Source: Burkholderiales bacterium
GTDB lineage: Bacteria > Pseudomonadota > Gammaproteobacteria > Burkholderiales > Burkholderiaceae_E
Assembly: GCA_017307915.1 (NCBI GenBank)
Contig: JAFKGG010000386.1
Span: 1-39,112, forward strand
Length of the DNA stretch: 39,112 nucleotides
Direction: 5' to 3'
Position numbers and translations under genes: made by a program. The notes below the pieces were generated by a model, which ran no database searches, was not told where the DNA came from, and saw only the letters and a list, made by a program, of their open reading frames with translations. Positions 10,013 through 14,079 of this stretch are shown here, piece by piece (position 1 is the first letter of the stretch; the number at the start of each line of letters is the position of its first letter).

Positions 10013-11740
10013 TCAATCCACCACAGCGGCACGCTTGCCGCGCTGGGCCGCGGGCTGCGGCAGCAGCGCCGGGCGCGCCGCGGCATCGGCACGGCCGATC
10101 AGGCGGTTCAGCGCGCTCAACACGGCCAGGATCGACGCGGTGGTCAGGTTCTCATGAATGCCTACGCCGAAGCGGCTGCCGGCCACGCCGGGCGCTGACA
10201 GCTCGACGAAGGCGCAGGCCTTGGCGTCGGCCCCCTGCCCCAGCGCGCGCTCTTCGTAGTGCAGCACGGTGACCGGCACGGCCAACGCGTGCGACAGGGC
10301 ATCGATCGGGCCGTTGCCTTCGCCCTCGAACACCATGTCGTCGCCGGCCACGCGCGCTTGCAGGCGGATGGTCTGCCGGCCGTTTTCTTCCGACAAGGAA
10401 TGGCGCTGGTAGCGCACCGGATGCTCGGCGCCCAGGTACTCTTCCTTGAACAGGTTCCACAACTGCTCGGCACTGACTTCTTCGCCGGTCTGATCGGTGA
10501 GCCGCTGCACGGCACTGCTGAACTCGACCTGCAGGCGGCGCGGCATCACCAGGCCATAGCAGCTTTCGAGCAGGTACGAGATGCCGCCCTTGCCCGACTG
10601 GCTGTTGACGCGAATGATCGAATCGTAGGTGCGGCCCAGGTCGGCCGGGTCGATCGGCAGATACGGCACTTCCCAGATCGCATCGGGGCGCTGCGCGGCA
10701 AAGCCCTTCTTGATCGCGTCTTGATGCGAACCTGAAAACGCGGTGAACACCAAGTCGCCCACGTACGGATGACGCGGGTGGATCGGCAGTTGCGTGCAGT
10801 CTTCCACGGTGCGCGCGATCTCGTTGATGCGCGAAAAATCCAGCCCCGGATCGACGCCCTGGCTATACAGGTTCAAGGCCAGCGTCACCAGATCGACGTT
10901 GCCGGTACGCTCGCCGTGGCTGAACAGGCAGCCTTCGACGCGATCGGCGCCGGCCATCACGCCCAGCTCGGCGGCCGCCACCGCGGTGCCGCGGTCATTG
11001 TGCGGATGCAGGCTGATCAGGATGCTGTCGCGGCGGGCCAGATGGCGGTGCATCCACTCGATCTGGTCGGCATAGTGGTTCGGTGTGGCCACTTCGACGG
11101 TAGCCGGCAGGTTGATGATCATCTTGTGCTGCGGCGTCGGGCCCCAGGTTTCGATGACCGCGTTGCAGACGTCGCGCGCCACTTCCAGCTCGGTGGAGGT
11201 GAACACCTCGGGGCTGTACTGGAACACGAACTCGGTGTCGGGCTGCTCGGCCACCAACTGCTTGATCAGCCGCGCGCTGTCGACGGCGATCTTCTGCACG
11301 CCGGCCGGGTCGGTGTCGAACACGATGCGGCGAAACGCCGGCGCCACCGCGTTGTACAGATGAACGATCGCGCGGCGCGCGCCGCGCACCGATTCCATCG
11401 TGCGGCGGATCAGGTCTTCGCGGGCCTGGGTCAGCACCTCGATGGTCACGTCTTCGGGGATGTGGCCGCCTTCGATCAGCTCGCGAACGAAATCGAAATC
11501 GGTCTGCGACGCCGACGGGAAAGCGACTTCGATTTCCTTGAGGCCGATCGCCACCAGCATCTTGAACATGCGCATCTTGCGCTCGGCGTTCATCGGCTCG
11601 AACAGCGACTGGTTGCCGTCACGCAGGTCGGTGCTCATCCAGATCGGCGGCTGCGTCAGGCGGCGCGACGGCCATTGGCGGTCGGGCAGATCGACCGATT
11701 GGAAGGGACGGTATTTGGTAGCGGGGTTCTTCAGCATCAT
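10013..11740 (-). CDS. leuA: 2-isopropylmalate synthase
   Basis: A 575-residue enzyme of leucine synthesis that condenses acetyl-CoA with 2-oxoisovalerate. It is the longer LeuA type common in Burkholderiales and starts [13 protein letters not shown]. Visible features are the catalytic [11 protein letters not shown] motif (Arg40, Asp41), the metal-binding LHPHNDRG with [24 protein letters not shown], and a C-terminal allosteric domain from about residue 430. The ATG at 11740 (second ATG directly after) is preferred over an upstream in-frame TTG at 11821 because it matches the family N-terminus. It is a single-gene unit convergent with the kinase. The 340-nt leader carries a Leu-rich peptide and competing hairpins, so control by leucine availability is likely. 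Confidence 0.96.
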
Positions 11741-11742
11741 GA

Positions 11743-11895
11743 TCAACACCTGGATTCGAATCGTCGGGAAAAGCGAGTGGCCGACGGGCTGCCAGACTGC
11801 CACGGGCGCGAGGTCTGGCAACCGCTGCCTAGTCGCGCCAGCAGTGCGGCAAGCGGCAGGCGGGATTCAGCGGCGGTATGAATCGGGATGCTCAT
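11743..11895 (-). CDS. small ORF directly upstream of leuA (possible coupling or second leader peptide)
   Basis: A 50-codon frame whose TGA ends 2 nt before the leuA ATG. Codons 13-22 contain five leucines (CTG, CTT, CTG, CTG, CTA), and the first hairpin of the leuA leader starts three codons after the last of them. Translation through this frame would melt both hairpins next to the leuA start. The start codon has only a weak purine-rich stretch (GAGAAAG) in front. It may be a chance frame; there is no known homologue that I recognise. Confidence 0.35.
11762..11820 (-). promoter_or_regulatory. two hairpins in leuA 5' leader next to the start codon
   Basis: In leuA mRNA order, the first stem is TGCCAGAC/GTCTGGCA (genome 11813-11820 and 11790-11797, 8 bp, 15-nt loop). 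The second is CGTCGG/CCGACG (11781-11786 and 11762-11767, 6 bp). They lie 22-80 nt upstream of the leuA ATG, inside the small ORF. Neither is followed by a U-run, so translation control is more likely than termination here. Confidence 0.5.
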
Positions 11896-11942
11896 GTCGG
11901 GCTTTCTCGGATTTCTTCGGGTGGCGAAATCGAACGCGGCCG

Positions 11943-12072
11943 GGCTGTCCTTTTGGGACAGCCGCTCTGCTACAAACGACGGAAAGGGGGGTGGGGTTTT
12001 ATGCGCGCGAAACGCGCAGTAGCAGACCCGCGCTGCGTAGTAGCGCTAGCGACAGGAGAATGGCGGTCTGCT
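11943..12072 (-). promoter_or_regulatory. leucine attenuator-like leader RNA (alternative hairpins)
   Basis: Reading the leuA transcript, three segments can pair in two exclusive ways. Segment 1 is AGCAGACC (12072-12065), segment 2 GGTCTGCTAC (12028-12019), segment 3 GTAGCAGA (11973-11966). Segments 1 and 2 pair over 8 bp; segments 2 and 3 pair over 8 bp. Two bases after segment 3 is a perfect 8-bp hairpin, GGCTGTCC/GGACAGCC (11963-11956 and 11950-11943, loop CAAAA). Segments 1 and 2 lie within the Leu-rich leader peptide, the usual attenuator layout. The last hairpin lacks a U-run, so whether it ends transcription by itself, by Rho, or acts otherwise is open. Confidence 0.7.
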
Positions 12073-12082
12073 GGGAATGCAT
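11999..12082 (-). CDS. leuL: leucine leader peptide of leuA
   Basis: A 27-residue peptide beginning MHSQQTAILLSLALLRSAG and ending TAA at 11999. Eight of 27 residues are leucine (positions 9, 10, 12, 14, 15, 20, 21, 22), four of them the less common CTA codon. This density, its place upstream of leuA on the same strand, and the alternative hairpins it overlaps make it a leu operon leader peptide. Codons 4-6 form hairpin segment 1 and codons 19-22 segment 2. A ribosome stalled on Leu codons 9-15 would free segment 2. No ribosome-binding site is visible, and the predicted promoter puts the transcript start at or beside the ATG. The mRNA may therefore be leaderless, as known for trpL of Sinorhizobium meliloti. 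Confidence 0.8.
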   Translation of the reverse strand: MHSQQTAILLSLALLRSAGLLLRVSRA

Positions 12083-12088
12083 CGGGTT

Positions 12089-12118
12089 ATGATCGGCGAA
12101 CAAGGCCGGGCTTGTCAA
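12089..12118 (-). promoter_or_regulatory. sigma-70-type promoter for leuL-leuA
   Basis: On the - strand a perfect -35 TTGACA (12118-12113) and an imperfect -10 GATCAT (12094-12089), spacer 18. The expected start of transcription, about 12082, coincides with the leuL ATG. The rest of the gap up to 12232 holds no gene. Confidence 0.6.
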
Positions 12119-12232
12119 CTCGACTCAAGAGCGGGCAGGCATCGGTTGTTGTCTTTTTGGCCTTCATATGGTTTTGATTCGTCGCTTCGGCGATTTTTTC
12201 CGCCCTGATTCGCGCTCTGCCGCCCCATCGCC

Positions 12233-12733
12233 ATGCTGCGCTTTGCCCATATCGATCACGTCGTGCTGCGCGTAGTGAACCTGCGCACCATGCTTGATTT
12301 CTACGTTGGCGTGCTGGGCTGTACGCCCGAGCGCGACCGTCCCGACCTGGGGCTGTACCAGGTGCGCGCCGGCGCATCGCTGATCGACCTGGTGCCGATC
12401 GACGAACCGCTGGGCCGCGCCGGCGGTGCCGCGCCAGGGCGCGAGGGGCGCAACCTCGATCATTTCTGCCTGCAACTGCAAAGCTTCAATGGCGACGCGA
12501 TCATTGCCTGGCTGCACGAGCGCGGCGTGAAGATCGTCGGTGAACTGAAGACACGCTACGGGGCGCAGGGCGACGGGCCGTCACTGTACATCGAGGACCC
12601 GGAAGGCAACGTAGTGGAACTGAAGGGGCCGGTGGCTGAGGGCGAGTCGGTCGGCGGCGAGGCCGCTAGCCGCGGGATAGCGGGCGATGAATCGGCCGGC
12701 GTTGAGTCGGCCGGCGCGGGTGGCCAGCGCTGA
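12233..12733 (+). CDS. VOC family (glyoxalase/bleomycin-resistance fold) protein
   Basis: A 166-residue vicinal-oxygen-chelate protein. The two beta-alpha-beta-beta-beta modules are recognisable from FAHIDHVVLRVVNLRTMLDFYVGVLGC at the start, NLDHFCLQL in the middle and YIEDPEGNVVELKGP near residue 130. His9, the His of NLDHF and the Glu of VVELKG are the likely metal ligands. After that the chain runs into a 30-residue Gly/Glu/Ser/Ala tail with ESVGGEA and ESAGVESAG repeats that is outside the fold. The stop overlaps the next start (TGATG), so it is coupled to the flavoprotein. The family includes lyases, dioxygenases and resistance proteins; no reaction is assigned. No convincing ribosome-binding site is seen. 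Confidence 0.88.
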   Translation: MLRFAHIDHVVLRVVNLRTMLDFYVGVLGCTPERDRPDLGLYQVRAGASLIDLVPIDEPLGRAGGAAPGREGRNLDHFCLQLQSFNGDAIIAWLHERGVKIVGELKTRYGAQGDGPSLYIEDPEGNVVELKGPVAEGESVGGEAASRGIAGDESAGVESAGAGGQR

Positions 12734-14079
12734 TGCCCGACGTGACGATCGCCGTGGTCGGCGGCGGGCCGGCCGGCCTGATGGCGGCCGAGGTGCTGGT
12801 GCAAGCGGGTCTGCCGGTCGAGGTCTTCGATGCGATGCCGTCGGTGGGTCGCAAGTTCCTGCTCGCCGGCAAGGGCGGACTCAATCTGACCCATGCCGAG
12901 CCGATCGACGCATTCATGATGCGCTATGGAGCAAGGCGGGCAACGATCGAACCCTTGCTGGCGGCCTTCGGGCCGGCAGCGCTGCGCGAGTGGGCGCACG
13001 GGCTGGGCGTCGACACTTTCGTCGGCACTTCAGGCCGCGTGTTTCCGGCCGAGATGAAGGCGGCGCCGCTGCTGCGGCGCTGGCTGCACCGGTTGCGCGA
13101 GGCGGGCGTGCGCTTTCACATGCGGCATCGGTGGATGGGTTGGGACGAGGCGGCGGCCGAGTCGCCGGCGGGTGTCCAGCCGCTGCGCTTTGCCGCGCCC
13201 GATGGCGAACACCGGGTATCGGCCCGCGCCGTGATCCTGGCGCTGGGCGGCGCAAGCTGGGCGCGGCTGGGTTCCGATGGCACCTGGGTGCCGCTGCTGG
13301 CGCAGCGCGGCGTACCGGTGGCGCCGCTGGCCCCCGCCAACTGCGGCTTCGATGCCGGCGCGCATGCCACGCCGGGCTGGAGCGAGCATTTTCGCGAGCG
13401 CTTTGCCGGCGCGCCGCTGAAATCGGTGGCCGCCTGGATCGACGGCGACCCGGTGTTCGGCAACGCACGCCGCGGCGAATGCGTGGTCACCGCCACCGGT
13501 ATCGAGGGCAGTCTGGTCTACGTGTTCTCGGCGGCGCTGCGCGACCGCATTGCCGCGCACGGGCAGGCCGTGCTGCAACTCGATCTATCGCCCGAGCGCA
13601 GCGAACGGCAACTGGCGGCCGAGTTGTCACGGCCGCGCGGCTCGAAGTCGATGGCCAATCACTTGCGTGCCCGCGCCGGCATCGATGGCGTCAAAGCCGG
13701 CCTGCTGCGCGAGCTGCTGCCGGCTGATGCCTTTGTCGATCCGCAGCGCTTGGCCGCGGCGATCAAGTCGCTGCCGATCCCGCTGGCCGCGCCGCGGCCG
13801 ATCGACGAAGCGATCAGCACGGCCGGCGGCGTGCGCTTCGAAGCGCTCGACGATGCGCTGATGCTGCGTGCGCTGCCCGGCGTGTTCTGCGCCGGCGAGA
13901 TGCTCGATTGGGAAGCGCCGACCGGCGGCTATCTGCTCACCGCCAGCATGGCCAGCGGACGCGTGGCCGGGCTGGGCGCACAGGCGTGGCTGGCGGCTAA
14001 CGCCCCGGCTGCTTCCGGGCTTGGCGCCGTCACTCAGCCGCGCGACGGCGAGCCGGCTAGATCACTGTCCGGCGACTGA
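12733..14079 (+). CDS. NAD(P)/FAD-dependent oxidoreductase, HI0933/BaiN-like family
   Basis: A 448-residue flavoprotein. The N-terminus has the FAD-binding VVGGGPAGLMAAEVL (about residues 7-21), followed by GRKFLLAGKGGLNLTHAEP, the family signature around the flavin. The C-terminus closes the FAD site with LPGVFCAGEMLDWEAPTGGYLL and an alanine/glycine helix. It belongs to the HI0933/YhiN/BaiN group, specifically resembling the proteobacterial subgroup described as TIGR03862. Its physiological substrate is unknown; BaiN itself acts on bile-acid intermediates in gut clostridia, which is not expected here. It is translationally coupled to the VOC gene, and its 3' end overlaps the convergent dioxygenase by 46 bp. 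Confidence 0.9.
   Translation: MPDVTIAVVGGGPAGLMAAEVLVQAGLPVEVFDAMPSVGRKFLLAGKGGLNLTHAEPIDAFMMRYGARRATIEPLLAAFGPAALREWAHGLGVDTFVGTSGRVFPAEMKAAPLLRRWLHRLREAGVRFHMRHRWMGWDEAAAESPAGVQPLRFAAPDGEHRVSARAVILALGGASWARLGSDGTWVPLLAQRGVPVAPLAPANCGFDAGAHATPGWSEHFRERFAGAPLKSVAAWIDGDPVFGNARRGECVVTATGIEGSLVYVFSAALRDRIAAHGQAVLQLDLSPERSERQLAAELSRPRGSKSMANHLRARAGIDGVKAGLLRELLPADAFVDPQRLAAAIKSLPIPLAAPRPIDEAISTAGGVRFEALDDALMLRALPGVFCAGEMLDWEAPTGGYLLTASMASGRVAGLGAQAWLAANAPAASGLGAVTQPRDGEPARSLSGD

Follow-up and report, generated by a model that had tools for sequence, protein, structure and literature searches.

A putative leaderless leucine leader in tandem with a LEU-type pseudoknot element upstream of leuA in a Burkholderiales bacterium

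The leuA gene in the window (the whole stretch of DNA that was analysed, 39,112 nucleotides of contig JAFKGG010000386.1 from a Burkholderiales bacterium) is preceded by a leucine-rich short frame, leuL, and by a conserved element (11743–11895) that lies between leuL and leuA and was overlooked in the original prediction. The explanation that we favour, and hold to be moderately likely, is that a leaderless leuL stands in tandem with a LEU element behind one promoter, and that leuA would be controlled mainly at translation, by ribosomes stalled on Leu codons. What began as a guess at an attenuator in one genome has become a recurrent class of apparently leaderless Leu leaders before leuA in many beta- and gammaproteobacteria. 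The features of the locus are collected in Table 1.

Table 1. Observed and predicted features of the leuA upstream region of the window, listed in the direction of transcription.
Feature	Position	Strand	Basis
-35 box, TTGACA	12113–12118	(-)	sequence check and sigma-70-like site scan; class-wide spacing
-10 box, GATCAT; spacer 18; 6 nt before ATG	12089–12094	(-)	promoter scan
leuL (ORF1), putative leaderless Leu-rich leader peptide; 27 codons + stop	11999–12082	(-)	sequence and leader comparison
Arm 1, leuL codons 4–6, CAGCAGACC	12065–12073	(-)	1:2 pairing across 19 leaders
Arm 2, leuL codons 19–22, GGTCTGCTACTG	12017–12028	(-)	1:2 pairing across 19 leaders
Arm 3 of the original prediction, GTAGCAGA	11966–11973	(-)	2:3 pairing unsupported as a class
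8-bp hairpin, GGCTGTCC-CAAAA-GGACAGCC, without U-run	11943–11963	(-)	sequence and hairpin scan
ORF2, 50 codons + stop; TGA ends 2 nt before leuA ATG	11743–11895	(-)	ORF list and element comparison
ORF2 Leu codons (CACTGCTGG), can pair with leuA SD region	11838–11846	(-)	42-element pairing test
Pseudoknot stem 1, 5' arm, GGTTGCCAGAC	11813–11823	(-)	alignment, fold, model
Pseudoknot stem 2, loop strand, GTGGC	11799–11803	(-)	stem 2 test
Pseudoknot stem 1, 3' arm, GTCTGGCAGCC	11787–11797	(-)	alignment, fold, model
Pseudoknot stem 2, 3' strand, GCCAC	11777–11781	(-)	stem 2 test
leuA Shine-Dalgarno (SD) region, CCAGGTG	11747–11753	(-)	sequence and pairing test
leuA, 2-isopropylmalate synthase, 575 aa, NCBIfam TIGR00970	10013–11740	(-)	family match

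The leuL frame and the leuA loci compared

The leuL frame (MHSQQTAILLSLALLRSAGLLLRVSRA, followed by a stop codon; 12082–11999) contains eight Leu codons, four of which are CTA, compared with 2 of the 291 Leu codons in seven long ORFs of the window (P 1.5e-7). Dinucleotide shuffling of the 400-nt region produced an equally Leu-rich short frame in 5 of 2000 runs. The letters of the frame, of its pairing arms and of the last hairpin are as the original prediction gave them, and the feature that it described is real and, as a Leu-rich, CTA-rich frame, goes beyond chance. The downstream gene matches NCBIfam TIGR00970 with 766 bits (cut-off 697).

For comparison, leuA loci were drawn from the window's family (at least 30, the window included), from named genomes (the best 80 of 593) and from the wider order (at least 30), 140 upstream regions in total and 128 non-redundant ones after removal of 12 near-duplicates. 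A leader was defined by a fixed rule as an ATG frame of 8–60 codons with at least five Leu, at least 17% Leu and three Leu within six codons. By this rule a leader is found in 79 of the 128 upstream regions, which supports the proposal of a Leu leader peptide before leuA, and CTA makes up 181 of the 598 Leu codons of the 79 leaders.

Leader pairings and the question of termination

Attenuators in proteobacteria were reportedly described by Vitreschak et al. in 2004. The leuL region had been read as a classical attenuator, with alternative 1:2 and 2:3 pairings ahead of a last hairpin whose missing U-run was thought unusual. The U-run is indeed missing in the window, and its absence is general among the relatives. 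Among 48 leaders, 22 have a hairpin of 6 bp or more at 28–45 nt past the leader stop, six have one elsewhere in the scanned stretch and 20 have none, and only 1 of the 28 hairpins is followed by at least six T within 9 nt, a frequency that makes intrinsic termination unlikely as the output. Moreover, a scan of 11700–12260 revealed no terminator-like site on the minus strand.

Termination might instead depend on Rho. Fast translation of leuL would then bare C-rich RNA after the stop codon, Rho would end transcription before leuA, and the 8-bp hairpin would act as a pause or coupling hairpin. The missing U-run, in the window and as a class, agrees with such a mechanism, and over 48 leaders the first 30 nt past the leader stop have an excess of C over G of about 0.2, a C-rich patch that makes Rho possible. 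However, a similar C excess recurs elsewhere in the leaders, at -60 and +75 nt, and Rho would leave unexplained both the pseudoknot and the pairing of Leu codons with the SD region that are described below; Rho-dependent attenuation is, in our judgement, unlikely but deserving of attention.

The energies of the 1:2 and 2:3 pairings were obtained from 19 related leaders chosen by hand and by eye. Across these the 1:2 pairing has a mean of -18.7 kcal/mol, against -15.4 +/- 0.66 when the codons of arm 1 are shuffled (0 of 100 shuffles as low), and in the window alone it is equalled by 25% of codon shuffles. The segment called arm 3 (GTAGCAGA) is present, with a gap of 45 nt between TCTGCTAC and it (46 nt in the original prediction). 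For the 2:3 pairing the 19 chosen leaders have a mean of -30.8, which is 2.2 SD below mononucleotide shuffles (-28.9 +/- 0.89; the lowest of 100 was -31.6), and in the window alone 7.75% of shuffles give an 8-bp match and 44% reach the energy of the pairing. As an antiterminator over 47 leaders, it has a mean z of -0.6 and falls below -2 in 4 of the 47, three of which belong to the Halomonas/Chromohalobacter group. In that group (loci L102, L106 and L109) pairing between leader codons and downstream RNA is strong (z -3.1 to -4.1), and a real 2:3-type switch may operate there.

The minimum-energy fold of 11730–12082, one prediction for one sequence, has a z of -3.0 against shuffles. Both the 2:3 pairing and the 8-bp hairpin form in it, as does stem 1 of the pseudoknot, and the start of leuA is covered by an outer stem. 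The 2:3 pairing and the hairpin stand side by side in this fold and hence are not mutually exclusive. A search of Rfam over the window gave no match at the gathering threshold, and at a low threshold 11600–12250 gave three matches (E 1.6 to 4, far under the gathering scores), none of them to a leader family. Conservation upstream of leuA is supported for the Leu-rich frame and for the 1:2 arms and is not supported for 2:3. Classical attenuation, in which 1:2 alternates with 2:3 before an intrinsic terminator, can appeal to the conserved 1:2 pairing, to the presence of 2:3 in the fold of the window and to its depth in the chosen leaders, but a 2:3 pairing that is unsupported across 47 leaders and compatible with the last hairpin, together with the lack of a U-run and of an Rfam leader match, leaves it improbable.

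A pseudoknot between leuL and leuA

In the window, ORF2 includes a Leu-rich stretch (five Leu among 11 codons) and, by eye, lacks a strong SD (CCGAGAAAGCCCGAC); it enters a conserved structure at 11823–11777. The alignment of this structure from 29 loci folds into an 11-bp stem (stem 1) with changes on both sides in 7 of the 11 pairs, and a model, R1, was built from the same alignment. In 100 sources R1 gave 31 matches with E below 1e-6, of which 28 were training sequences and three were new (L051, L096 and L059, the last a near-duplicate of L055). A further 48 sources gave 16 matches with E <= 5e-5, which include one training sequence (L107) and five loci that had been fetched with R1. When 14 genomes, mostly those of training loci, were searched, 13 had a strong match, at the leuA locus. 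Among 200 genomes of the wider order, at least 14 have a match at E <= 0.001, a lower bound as 24 candidates were scored per genome, and all 14 matches lie directly upstream of leuA; leuA of this type (E <= 1e-150) is present in 67 of the 200.

A second stem can form between the loop of stem 1 and the RNA 3' of it. Over 47 elements, among which are a few near-duplicates and many that have GUGGC/GCCAC in common, the mean score of stem 2 is 13.85, narrowly above all 500 partner permutations (mean 12.92, maximum 13.83) and above the maximum of 200 shuffles (12.22). The versions of this stem include GUGGC/GCCAC, GCGGC/GCCGC, GCGAC/GUCGC, CCGGC/GCCGG and AAAGA/UCUUU; L146, with only three pairs, is an exception, as are L036 and L043, where another helix was picked by the script. 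Judged from these exchanges, stems 1 and 2 together are an H-type pseudoknot with compensatory changes. Nearly every element has an ORF that runs into the pseudoknot; it ends inside the loop in 22 of 42 (by a script rule) and reads on to the leuA start in others, for example in the window and in Zoogloea.

Three further observations concern the distribution of the element. An Achromobacter genome (L126) has an extra strong pseudoknot match upstream of a second, shorter leuA-like frame of 345 aa. In four cyanobacterial loci (L040, L060, L083 and L087) leuA is 59–64% identical to that of the window and is accompanied by a similar Leu leader, with GLGLLLRL in two of the four, and by the pseudoknot; because all three likenesses are present, a joint transfer of leuA and leader is suggested. 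At the Sphingomonas parapaucimobilis locus (L195), inspection by eye revealed a short Leu-rich frame whose TAG falls within a CCGCCCTTAGGG...CCCTAAGGGCGG hairpin ahead of leuA; this may be a third way of realising the scheme.

Pairing of Leu codons with the leuA SD region

In 42 elements, the 36-nt stretch that leads into the pseudoknot and holds the Leu codons was paired with the leuA SD region. The mean is -11.68, against -9.35 when partners are permuted (z -5.9; 0 of 300 permutations), and 40 non-redundant elements give a z of -5.8. If the downstream side is shifted away, z falls stepwise to -0.6 and 0.1, and if the upstream side is shifted it becomes -3.6, 0.4 and 0.2, with a weaker signal again 48–96 nt upstream (z -2.0 and -2.9). 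The pairing of the window itself, CAC-CUGG with CCAGGUG, has an average energy (-9.9 kcal/mol against the permutation mean of -9.35), so that for the window the SD-pairing step rests on class membership. The match of Leu codons to SD region points to one mechanism, in which a stalled ribosome opens the ribosome-binding site of the next gene.

It is also conceivable that the ligand of the pseudoknot is a protein, as PMC1262725 proposes for the LEU element of Actinobacteria, or leucine, and that the Leu codons are secondary. Compactness, conservation and strong matches at leuA would suit a ligand-binding structure, but the sequence-by-sequence match between the Leu codons and the leuA SD region, and the entry of the ORF into the pseudoknot in nearly every element, make such a role improbable as the principal explanation.

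Leaderless leaders across leuA loci

In the window, TTGACA-18-GATCAT is the only sigma-70-like site found in 11700–12260 on both strands, and its -10 box agrees with the consensus at only four of six positions. The TTGACA is perfect, as had been stated; the leuL ATG at 12082 lies 36 nt, and not 37, after its first T (12118–12113, minus strand). Across the loci, 47 of the 79 leaders have a TTGAC that begins 33–39 nt ahead of the ATG, at exactly 36 nt in 30 of them. When the upstream 80 nt were shuffled, a mean of 0.6 and a maximum of 5 leaders had this spacing (1000 runs); it occurs at 15 of 1117 other same-strand ATGs and at 1 of 14 reverse-strand Leu-rich frames. For 41 of the 47 spaced leaders, 6 or 7 nt separate the end of the best -10 from the ATG. 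The hexamer has T as its first base in 42 of the 47, A as its second in 42 and T as its last in all 47, an agreement favoured by the choice of the hexamer as the best of four spacings. An anti-SD run of at least four precedes the leader ATG in 7 of the 47, whereas at the same loci it precedes the leuA ATG in 36.

Because the fixed TTGAC spacing, the position of the -10, the small number of SDs and the use of CTA all recur, the leaderless Leu leader before leuA is, as far as these comparisons can tell, a recurrent and broad class in the beta- and gammaproteobacteria. The 47 include the betaproteobacteria Burkholderia, Herbaspirillum, Massilia, Zoogloea, Chitinimonas and Methylobacillus, the gammaproteobacteria Halomonas, Chromohalobacter and Alkanindiges, and one cyanobacterium. 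The original suggestion of a leaderless start is supported by the promoter geometry, the class-wide spacing and the few SDs, and such a start is common in relatives rather than unusual. That transcription starts elsewhere and leuL goes untranslated, as the imperfect -10 box might be taken to suggest, is barely credible given the fixed spacing, the few SDs and the CTA bias.

Of 18 pseudoknot loci that lack the TTGAC spacing, eight have TGN-T[TC]GACT 6–8 nt before the leader ATG, a count made without a chance control. In the window's family, loci L004–L012, L014 and L015 have leaderless leaders of another sort (for example ...LLRLGTGRGRLLPVQGA) and are unmatched by the pseudoknot model.

Over the 128 loci, the spaced leaderless leader is present in 47, the pseudoknot (model E below 1e-6) in 39, both in 21, among them the window, and either in 65; thus the two elements occur alone or together. 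A leader is absent by the fixed rule from 49 of the 128 upstream regions, a spaced TTGAC from 32 of the 79 leaders and a strong match to the pseudoknot model from 89 of the 128 regions, and so neither element is universal.

Comparison with known systems

The LEU element upstream of actinobacterial leuA, in the accessible part of the description by Seliverstov et al. (2005; PMC1262725), comprises an ORF with Leu codons, a pseudoknot and a base stem between Leu codons and the leuA SD, and mutations cited there for the actinobacterial element are at odds with classical attenuation. The element before leuA in the window appears to match that element by its features, namely the upstream ORF with Leu codons, the pseudoknot, the base stem and the position at leuA; the base stem is found across the 42 elements and is weak in the window alone. 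In contrast to the actinobacterial element, ORF2 of the window is preceded by a distinct, putatively leaderless leuL and continues across the pseudoknot as far as the leuA start.

Of the five actinobacterial loci that were fetched, four (L188–L191) have an 11–12-bp stem after the Leu codons, which were read by eye in two of the four, and a stop codon in the loop. The Streptomyces locus (L194) has no Leu-rich upstream frame by the rule and was excluded from the stem check. The automatic pick of actinobacterial pseudoknot pairs was inconsistent, and the account in the available text of PMC1262725 was used for that pseudoknot. R1 gave no match with E <= 1 in L188–L191 or L194, so the likeness of the proteobacterial and actinobacterial elements is one of features rather than of sequence. 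The LEU pseudoknot, described in Actinobacteria with an unsettled mode of action, would thus be present in proteobacteria, where ordinary reporters are usable. Within the open-licence literature, in the text available, neither LEU elements nor leaderless Leu leaders were found to have been reported from beta- or gammaproteobacteria.

Several other leaders share part of this design. LeuL1 of Streptomyces lividans (MRFGLLLLSCRGEGL), in the accessible sections of PMC8079986, is like leuL a leaderless Leu-rich peptide before leuA without a typical intrinsic terminator; it has the form of the LEU-element ORFs of L188 and L190, whereas the leaderless peptide of the window is a separate upstream ORF. 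The leaderless trpL of Sinorhizobium meliloti, according to the text available for PMC7298713, has its 5' end at the leader ATG, and resembles leuL as a proteobacterial leader with such a start (predicted for the window); in contrast, it carries Trp and not Leu codons, and an sRNA is produced by attenuation there. The LeuL of the Campylobacter jejuni leuABCD operon (PMC3847290, PMC11955535) is, like leuL, a Leu leader with rare Leu codons before leuA; it was sought with an upstream ribosome-binding site, and the accessible text of the two papers does not mention a pseudoknot, whereas the window has one.

A model for the control of leuA

In the tandem arrangement that we favour, transcription would start at or within one base of the AUG of leuL (element I). 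A ribosome would start on the leaderless end and, when Leu-tRNA is short, stall at CUA or CUG, keeping arm 1 off arm 2. The effect of leuL on what follows could be to open or to close the ORF2 region, or else to admit Rho. At 11 loci there was no sign that the C-rich RNA beyond the leuL stop pairs with the ribosome-binding site of ORF2 (-7.27 versus -7.57 permuted). In element II, the LEU element, the Leu codons of ORF2, when free, would pair with the leuA SD region, with the H-type pseudoknot inside. A ribosome stalled on these codons would keep the SD open, and translation of leuA would rise when leucine is short. Since ORF2 ends so close to the leuA AUG, re-initiation may contribute as well; taken alone, a coupling between ORF2 and leuA would predict less leuA during stalling, a point that was counted against this explanation. 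The main output would be translation of leuA, not intrinsic termination. Leucine supply would probably set the strength of that translation, and the second ORF may hide the leuA ribosome-binding site. At the level of sequence, the comparison supports the promoter spacing, the missing U-run, pseudoknot stems 1 and 2 and the pairing of Leu codons with the SD region; translation, stalling, the direction of the response and the action of element I on leuA are steps that we infer.

A comparable device is reportedly at work in mycobacteria, where Canestrari et al. in 2020 are said to have described leaderless polycysteine short ORFs on which stalled ribosomes open the ribosome-binding site of the next gene. 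These ORFs share with leuL a leaderless, amino-acid-sensing design (predicted in the window) and differ from it in that cysteine and other genes are concerned; we know of no LEU pseudoknot in the polycysteine systems.

A wider reading has two parts, to which, taken jointly, we would give an even chance. The first is that the locus carries a two-stage leucine switch new to proteobacteria, in which a leaderless leuL subject to stalling lies upstream of a full LEU element, and ORF2 can hide the leuA ribosome-binding site by means of its Leu codons and the pseudoknot. The second is that the LEU element is of ancient origin as a module of TIGR00970-type leuA in beta- and gammaproteobacteria, cyanobacteria and actinobacteria, that it was combined with or fused to a leaderless leuL according to lineage, and that it may have travelled with the gene.

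Genomic context

The contig probably belongs to this genome, because the closest kin (about 70%) of a neighbouring flavoprotein frame at 12733–14079 come from the same genus, and mis-binning was rejected on this evidence. Among the 17 same-genus genomes (G057–G073), only one (G064) has leuA of this type (E < 1e-150), and most of the others have only a distant leuA match, like the second copy in the window genome on contig C420; leuA of this type may have been gained or lost within the genus. On the plus strand, a terminator-like hairpin with a T-run is present at 12179–12199, some 30 nt ahead of a divergent ORF that starts at 12233.
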